A stretch of DNA of 64,000 nt from Steroidobacteraceae bacterium (lineage in GTDB: Bacteria > Pseudomonadota > Gammaproteobacteria > Steroidobacterales > Steroidobacteraceae). The notes under the pieces were generated by a model that saw only the letters and a program-made list of their open reading frames with translations, searched no databases and was not told the origin of the DNA. Position 1 is the first letter of the stretch; each line of letters starts with the position of its first letter. The position numbers and the translations under genes are program-made. This document shows positions 4,766 through 44,297 of the stretch, piece after piece. The stretch lies in the NCBI GenBank assembly GCA_019634915.1, contig JAHCAN010000011.1, positions 23,399-87,398 on the forward strand, read 5' to 3'.

Positions 4766-4896
4766 CGCGCGGCGAGGGAAAAAATTGCGGGCCGACAAGA
4801 ACTTACGCTCGATCCGGCCCGCCGTCGAGGGGATTTTTCCGGAGCGACCTCTTAGCTATCAGAGGCTTGGAAGACGAAGCTTATACAGTAGTGAAG

Positions 4897-5235
<339 letters not shown>

Positions 5236-5252
<17 letters not shown>

Positions 5253-8510: not shown

Positions 8511-8710
8511 CGGGACGGTGGCGGTCGTCTTGCGGCCGACGACGAGCGTGGAGAGCGCCGAGGCGCGGCGAGCAGCGCGAGGCGTCGCGCAAAGGATTCT
8601 GCTGCCGCAGTTCAAATTCACGCCTCGCGCCGCCGCGCCGAGGGCACGGCGCCGCAGGCGCCGTGCTCGACCCGCGAGGAGTCGGCCGCAAGACGACCGC
8701 CACCGTCCCG
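8511..8710. repeat. Convergent-junction repeat, copy 1: structured core between 30-bp perfect inverted arms
   Basis: The 309-bp gap between yraN and sspB holds no convincing gene. Positions 8511-8540 are the exact reverse complement of 8681-8710 (30/30). Between them lies a core at 8549-8671 shared with copies 2 and 3. Within the core, 8644-8653 and 8657-8666 form a perfect 10-bp hairpin with a 3-base loop, and GGCGCGGCG plus GCGCGAGGCG on the left pair with CGCCTCGCGC plus CGCCGCGCC on the right. The arm sequence occurs nowhere else in the window as far as I can see. A weak open frame runs across it but is broken by a one-base length difference from copy 2, so it is treated as non-coding. 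Confidence 0.85.
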
Positions 8711-8761
8711 CGCGATACGCCCACAGCACCAGCCAGCGCCTCTGGCTGTCAGCTGCGCGCC

Positions 8762-13695: not shown

Positions 13696-13888
13696 AGGCG
13701 CCGGCGGCGTCACGCAGCTTGCGCCTCGCGTGGAGAGCGCCGAGGCGCGGCGAGCAGCGCGAGGCGCCGCGCAAGGGTTCTGCTACCACAGTTCAAATTC
13801 ACGCCTCGCGCCGCCGCGCCGAGGGCACGGCGCCGCAGGCGCCGCGCTCGACCCGCGAGGCGCAAGGTGCGTGACGCCCCCGGCGCCC
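13696..13888. repeat. Convergent-junction repeat, copy 2: structured core between 35-bp inverted arms
   Basis: This occupies most of the 298-bp gap between the DegS-like gene and murA. The arms 13696-13730 and 13854-13888 are inverted repeats with about 32 of 35 positions paired. The core, 13731-13852, differs from copy 1 at only about seven positions, including a one-base length change in the loop region. The arms are unrelated to those of copies 1 and 3 except for the innermost CCTCGCG/CGCGAGG, whose right half copy 1 also has. The inner triloop hairpin is retained with one G.U pair when read on the minus strand. No gene is supported here. Confidence 0.85.
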
Positions 13889-37540: not shown

Positions 37541-37552
37541 GGGCCGCACCGG

Positions 37553-37626
37553 CCTGAGGAGCGCTGCGACAGGGGCAAGCCCTGCCAGGCTCAGGCGACG
37601 GTGCAAACATGACAACGGCGCTCGTC
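37553..37626 (+). promoter_or_regulatory. S-adenosylhomocysteine (SAH) riboswitch
   Basis: The metK-ahcY gap matches the SAH riboswitch consensus: GAGGAGCGCTGCGAC, CCAGGCTC and AACGGCGCTC. Pairings are visible: P1 CCTGAG (37553-37558) with CTCAGG (37590-37595); P2 CAGGG with CCCTG around GCAAG; and the long-range helix GAGCGC (37559-37564) with GCGCTC (37618-37623). This class is known upstream of ahcY and turns expression on when SAH accumulates. The ahcY GGAG site lies 11 bases after the last helix. Confidence 0.93.
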
Positions 37627-37645
37627 ATGACATTCGGAGCACGAC

Positions 37646-44050: not shown

Positions 44051-44076
44051 GGCAGAACCCGCGCGGACCTCAGCCG

Positions 44077-44262
44077 GAGCGCCAGCGCCGCGGCTCCGGG
44101 GGCCGGGCGAGTCGAGCGCGGCTTCTTCGAAGCCGTGCCCTCACCGCGGCGGCGCTCGGCGAAGTGGAACTTCAGTGACGGAGGCCTCGCGGTCGCCTCG
44201 CTTTGCCCGCCGCGGCTCGGCGCTCTCCACGCCCGGCCCCCGGAGCCGCGGCGCTGGCGCTC
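44077..44262. repeat. Convergent-junction repeat, copy 3 (inverted): structured core between 33-bp perfect inverted arms
   Basis: In the 247-bp gap between the CheX-like and methyltransferase genes, 44077-44109 is the exact reverse complement of 44230-44262 (33/33). The core, 44111-44229, is in the opposite orientation to copies 1 and 2 and more diverged, but shares the terminal blocks (TGGAGAGCGCCGAG and GCGCTCGAC read on the minus strand) and the GAGGGCACGGC segment. On the plus strand, 44116-44125 and 44129-44138 form a 10-bp triloop hairpin with one G.U. Positions 44144-44151 pair with 44208-44215. Arms are unrelated to the other copies. Confidence 0.85.
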
Positions 44263-44297
44263 GCGCAGTGATCCACGCAGGCTCGTACCCGGCAGCT

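Follow-up and report, generated by a model that had tools for sequence, protein, structure and literature searches.

How can the copies of one repeat have a core in common and arms that pair with each other within a copy but are unrelated between copies? The question is raised by three long hairpins in a 64,000-nt stretch of the genome of an uncultured Steroidobacteraceae bacterium (the window, by which we mean this whole stretch; the home genome is called G000). The reading that we favour, with a probability of roughly 55%, is that they represent a structured repeat that is interspersed and non-autonomous, behaves like REP/REPIN elements but, at about 200 bp, far exceeds them in size, and has a basal stem that changes in sequence while its pairing is kept. 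The features on which the discussion rests are the following.

8511..8540, plus strand: outer left arm of copy 1, pairing at 30/30 positions with 8681-8710
8533..8687, plus strand: core of copy 1 with 14-nt inner arms, match to covariance model R2 at 139.9 bits
8681..8710, plus strand: outer right arm of copy 1, pairing with 8511-8540
13697..13730, plus strand: left arm of copy 2, pairing at 32/34 positions with 13854-13887
13715..13868, plus strand: core and inner arms of copy 2, R2 match at 130.1 bits
13854..13887, plus strand: right arm of copy 2, pairing with 13697-13730
44077..44109, minus strand: arm of copy 3 (3' arm in core orientation), pairing at 33/33 positions with 44230-44262
44095..44245, minus strand: core and inner arms of copy 3, R2 match at 134.2 bits
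44230..44262, minus strand: arm of copy 3 (5' arm in core orientation), pairing with 44077-44109
44051..44297, unstranded: site 3 insert, present in G000 but not in four congeners; it separates the stop codon of a CheX-like gene from that of an O-methyltransferase gene (genes by Pfam)

The shared core and the pairing of the arms in these copies agree with the figures of the preliminary description. Among the window's inverted repeats with arms up to 1500 bp apart (the 25 longest of 217), the three copies rank 1, 2 and 4 by length, and the remaining 22 are 70-79% complementary. Folded as single-stranded DNA, the copies have z-scores of -11.0, -8.0 and -7.6, with 0/200 shuffles as good each time. 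Their neighbours, named by Pfam, are UPF0102 and SspB for copy 1, a trypsin-PDZ protease and an EPSP-synthase-family protein for copy 2, and CheX and O-methyltransferase for copy 3; only five of the 45 neighbouring gene pairs in the window are convergent, and three of these five hold the copies. Beside copy 1, a hairpin-like sequence at 8731-8747 resembles, by eye, the one in the G006 spacer at site 1, with the loop roughly inverted. Two other structured elements of the window, a bacterial class A RNase P RNA (4895-5251) and a SAH riboswitch (37550-37630), are ordinary.

The three copies, initially described as a three-copy family, are real, but the family is bigger. First recovered by a search of G000 with copy 2, it numbers at least 19 copies there by covariance model (20 candidates scored), and the true number is probably higher because the genome is rated 78.6% complete. 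The element is present in 7/7 searched genomes of the home genus, and its copy number differs between congeners. The wider searches, over more than 40 genomes each, used stricter filters and few candidates per genome, so their counts are lower bounds: 10 of 396 genomes and 3 of 72 genera in the order (model R2), with weaker relatives of the element in two genera beyond the home genus, 9 of 150 genomes in the family-level search (model R1), and 1 of 369 in a sample of the class, which is the home genome itself. The exact element pattern occurs among named genomes in 20 stretches from five MAGs, matching G001 and G003-G006. A pattern search of IMG/VR viral sequences returned 0 stretches with the element, one G000 core had no match to plasmids and phages at E 0.01, and no Rfam family reached its gathering score over the window elements. 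The sole match of six loci to Rfam at E up to 5 was MIR1437, a plant miRNA family, at L172:1474-1677 of G074 (45 bits vs a cut-off of 168), which is probably a generic long hairpin. Three copies are packed into about 4.7 kb at another locus of the same genome, L213, and one of these separates divergent genes. No description of the family was found in the open-licence PMC literature.

From the outside inwards, the unit of about 200 nt consists of a variable outer arm, an inner arm, stem P2 and a three-way junction, which forms a conserved centre of 125 nt. The inner arm has a weak motif in most congeners (approximately TCCGG.GACGAG on the left and GCGAGGA.CCGGA on the right), P2 is the short stem GAGCGC/GCGCTC with compensated variants, P3 is a long stem with a conserved asymmetric bulge and a variable tip, and P4 is a hairpin whose stem varies in sequence with its pairing kept. 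In an alignment of 30 sequences, three of them from other genera, which was fitted to the model and hence leans towards the structure, 32 of the 38 pairs have changed on both sides, and 97.2% of cells are paired; shuffling lowers this figure to 81.0% and sliding to 32-50%.

Mismatches can tell the strands apart, because a G-T pair reads as an A-C mismatch on the complementary strand. Among the non-Watson-Crick cells of the core and inner arms in 55 copies, G-T outnumbers A-C by 34 to 7; the core-plus strand is therefore the folded strand, as RNA or single-stranded DNA. The outer arms of 74 copies have 42 G-T and 37 A-C cells (Fisher p = 0.0014 against the core), and their isolated mismatches 28 and 26 (p = 0.0022 against the core); in these counts, as in those of covariation, related copies are counted repeatedly and are phylogenetically non-independent. 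The outer arms, having no excess of G-T, speak against selection on a single folded strand in this part of the element.

The claim that the arms are private yet paired around a common core was borne out in G000, where the own-arm scores of 18 copies (12-34.5) lie above the maximum of 11.5 for 306 swapped arm pairs. In 18 of the 19 copies, 29-37 of 32-42 positions are paired; L006 is the weak exception, at 20/28. The arms of L004_1268 (33/34), L007 (32/33) and L005 (35/36) are near-perfect. For the 13 G000 pairs with cores at least 90% identical, arm identity is 0.48/0.50, and that of shuffled arms has a mean of 0.45 and a 95th percentile of 0.58 (offsets of 2 were allowed for the shuffles and of 3 for the identities). 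Arm and core identity are uncorrelated over 153 pairs (r = -0.06/-0.04), and copies at L001 and L002 combine cores up to 98% identical with unrelated arms. Compared with the assembly, 19/19 left arms find themselves and 17/19 their own right arm, with no match off their own site better than E 0.03 (all among the best 40 of 144 candidates). The arms had been called unrelated between copies, which is not entirely so: most copies have the short inner motif beside the core in common.

Arms behave differently in some of the other genomes. Over 57 copies from seven genomes, the mean own-arm score is 20.6 vs 1.5 for swaps (the lowest own score, 0, belongs to a degraded copy), and 1.5% of swaps reach a score of 15 because the copies of some genomes share arms. 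The 31 G005 pairs with cores at least 90% identical have an arm identity of 0.76/0.77, arm identity there correlates with core identity (r = 0.76/0.73), and a two-hairpin unit with two arm types has spread. (Core comparisons exclude L066_600 and L069_602, which are degraded; the arm tables exclude L067.) Six copies in G074, a genome of another genus, have outer and inner arm blocks in common and differ in a middle block of about 10 pairs, which still pairs. The search of relatives for common arms, proposed as a check on the original claim, thus found whole or visibly related arms shared by copies in G005, G003 and G074, but not in G000. Since G005 arms follow their cores and G074 copies keep arm blocks, the arms are a heritable stem of the element, of which G000 is the extreme case.

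Where do the arms come from? The preliminary description had proposed a comparison with empty orthologous sites, and site 3 provides it: the genes are separated by 0-2 bp, with abutting stop codons, in G001, G002, G004 and G006, and by about 248 bp, including both arms, in G000 (G005 has the two-copy unit, and the G003 contig ends there). Both arms arrive together with the element at this site, because the empty site of the four congeners holds neither of them. No target-site duplication is evident at site 3 against the empty alleles, and the ends of the element are undefined. No copy was matched at site 1 in six congeners, five of which have 10-106 bp between the aligned flanks and one, G004, 1,441 bp of other sequence. 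Site 2 is empty in G006 (6 bp), filled with copies in G003, G004 and G001, and occupied by fragments in G002 and G005.

Eight sites have copies in two or three species, and 19 of the 23 cores at such shared sites resemble a paralog of their own genome more closely than the same-site copy elsewhere; the nearest core lies in the same genome for 46 of 55 copies. Either gene conversion or insertion more than once at the same places would produce this clustering by genome. The arms at shared sites have identities of 0.36-0.68, for the most part within the range of shuffled arms. Two of seven shared-site pairs, L023/L024 and L022/L065 (the latter with an alignment that lies partly outside the arms), beat shuffles on both arms, and the alignments suggest that these may be sites of descent with fast arm change; 45 cross-site control pairs did not single out either of them. 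Core orientation is opposite between species at two shared sites (L050 vs L023/L024 and L053 vs L001), as would follow from an inversion mediated by the arms or from separate insertions.

When genes were called crudely from GC3, 27 of the 57 copies fell between convergent genes, 16 between tandem genes and 4 between divergent ones; one copy was in a predicted ORF, and nine were left unassigned. The 15 neighbour pairs of copies are 13 (-,+), one (-,-), one (+,+) and no (+,-), where pairs with equal spacing were counted once and those of G005 are consequently under-counted.

For the REP/REPIN-like repeat that we favour, three points are established. The conserved core folds into a three-way junction of basal P2, long P3 and hairpin P4, with one strand folded; the arms are the element's own basal stem, P1, rather than target DNA, because they arrived along with the core at site 3, which is empty in relatives; and P1 varies in sequence from copy to copy with its pairing preserved. 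The further course is inferred. After insertion, P1 would be free to change as long as it pairs, leading to quick drift or rewriting, and the core would be held by structure selection together with recent spread or gene conversion within each genome. Spread itself would be the work of a trans-acting enzyme recognising the folded single strand. Doubt remains over how G000 arms become private: with unrelated arms on cores up to 98% identical, plain drift is insufficient without gene conversion of the core or new arms at insertion.

What could keep the arms paired as they change? An unpaired inner loop next to the core is kept in 37 of 42 copies of G001-G005 and in 1 of 19 copies of G000. Of the other 18 copies of G000, five are paired with the common right side kept and three with the common left (in these eight the loop has become perfectly paired), six are paired with neither, and four are of other kinds. 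Such two-directional loop repair is what arm-to-arm copying would give, and copying is possible. In the part of PMC8794818 used here, a template switch is described as a single replication event in which one arm is copied from its partner and a stem can thereby be newly made or made perfect again; that part concerns rRNA and other RNA genes, and its extension to the arms of the element is possible. We offer it tentatively, as something that may well prove wrong, that one arm continually serves as the template from which the other is rewritten on the folded strand, which would yield a private self-perfecting palindrome around a structure-selected core. The earlier suggestion that arms are kept alike by repair fits the absence of strand bias among arm mismatches, but not the many one-sided changes of G005 arms, which equal or outnumber the two-sided ones there, so that pairing is not maintained strictly in G005. 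SbcD (TIGR00619), a subunit of a palindrome nuclease, was over the cut-off in 0/18 genomes of the family, 10 carriers and 8 non-carriers; a single weak match was seen in the non-carrier G033. That no SbcD is detectable across the family may let such hairpins persist; it is at most permissive, because carriers and non-carriers alike are without a match over the cut-off.

Alternatively, arms might be made anew at each insertion by snap-back synthesis on the element or the target (template switching), giving each copy a private perfect palindrome. The unrelated arms on G000 cores that are 92-98% identical, and the near-perfect arms of L004_1268, L007 and L005, are what this would produce, but we consider it doubtful as the general explanation, given the arms common to copies in G005, G003 and G074, and site 3 arms with no match in the flanks or the assembly better than E 0.03 (among the best 40 of 144 candidates). 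Its proposed variant of an inverted duplication of flanking DNA is rejected at site 3, where relatives have empty alleles, the flanking DNA consists of the ends of coding sequences, and the assembly contains no second match to either arm.

We think it unlikely that the copies are a functional non-coding RNA family with P1 as the terminal stem, which spread by duplication and not by transposition. Covariation, conserved unpaired bases and the excess of G-T over A-C on one strand would suit an RNA; against it, the copies show no preferred orientation with respect to neighbouring genes (at the 16 tandem sites, 8 run with the genes and 8 against them), copy number varies between congeners, sites can be empty, the arms are without the G-T excess, and Rfam gave no family at gathering score.

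The comparison with known systems leads to REPs. REPINs, in the portion of PMC3116915 drawn on here, are paired REP doublets, short non-autonomous intergenic palindromes, and resemble the element in having a poorly conserved paired region with compensatory changes and both conserved and variable blocks in one hairpin. They differ from it in that its conserved 125-nt junction is central and its variable paired part, of 30-45 bp, outside, and in that nine of the ten carrier genomes are without a detectable RAYT. As covered by the sections of PMC3733652 that we used, GTAG and CGTC REPs lie mainly downstream of genes and between convergent genes, with dimers in opposite orientation, their sub-families have alternative complementary stem residues, and CGTC REPs are without a known transposase. 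The element likewise favours gaps between convergent genes and pairs in opposite orientation, and no transposase was found for it; REP stems, according to the same sections, are of 6-13 bp with many copies per stem type, whereas those of the element are of 30-45 bp and each G000 copy has its own.

The element therefore works like a REP/REPIN, with intergenic inverted pairs near gene 3' ends, yet falls outside that class in RAYT and size: it measures about 200 nt, against palindromes of 20-50 nt with a GTAG-type foot, and, as judged from the alignment, the aligned core and inner arms have no such foot. The same terminal inverted repeats in all copies, as expected of a MITE, are lacking in G000 and partly present in G005 and G074. 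Integron attC sites are folded single-strand sites recognised by their structure, with a variable stem, where extrahelical bases set the strand. Compared by description, the element would resemble them in its folded single strand and variable stem sequence; the variable part is the middle and tip in attC, and the basal stem here.

Mobilisation of REP/REPIN elements by a genome-encoded RAYT (Y1) transposase would account for intergenic, palindromic, mostly inverted pairs with a single-strand fold, and G016 has six Y1_Tnp genes; it is nonetheless highly improbable, with no Y1_Tnp match (PF01797, RAYT-type) at E 0.01 in nine of the ten carrier genomes, G000 included, two of which are rated 100% complete. 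In G016 itself, one element copy was detected. Reverse transcriptase (PF00078), which a retron or group II intron would require, is likewise absent from 9/10 carrier genomes, with the sole match in G001, and no transposase or autonomous partner was found in the carrier genus, nor any enzyme gene between element copies. A pair of elements can enclose other genes: at L051:530-1760 of G001, a TacA1-like antitoxin and a PIN-domain gene lie between two inversely oriented copies that are 835 bp apart and whose left arms are identical. Two small ORFs beside a copy with new near-perfect arms (G001 L145:573-1249) resemble, by eye, a further antitoxin/PIN pair.

The idea that the core inserted at the tip of long hairpins already in place, which private and perfect arms had suggested, has hardly any standing left: four of six congeners have 0-2 bp between the convergent genes at site 3 and therefore no palindrome to split, which rejects it there unless these alleles are precise deletions, and copies at different sites have common arms in G005, G003 and G074.

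The hairpins of the window are members of a genuine family of interspersed repeats that are structured and have a variable stem of unusual length. For annotation, they add a structured element that is not listed in Rfam, probably in Steroidobacteraceae. They also provide tens of independent natural hairpins with a common core, different stems and sites with known empty relatives, in which two questions become testable in bacteria: whether selection or DNA synthesis templated by the hairpin maintains the pairing of long stems, and by what route REP-like repeats spread where a genome has no RAYT. The element thus records how pairing survives in a hairpin whose sequence is changing.
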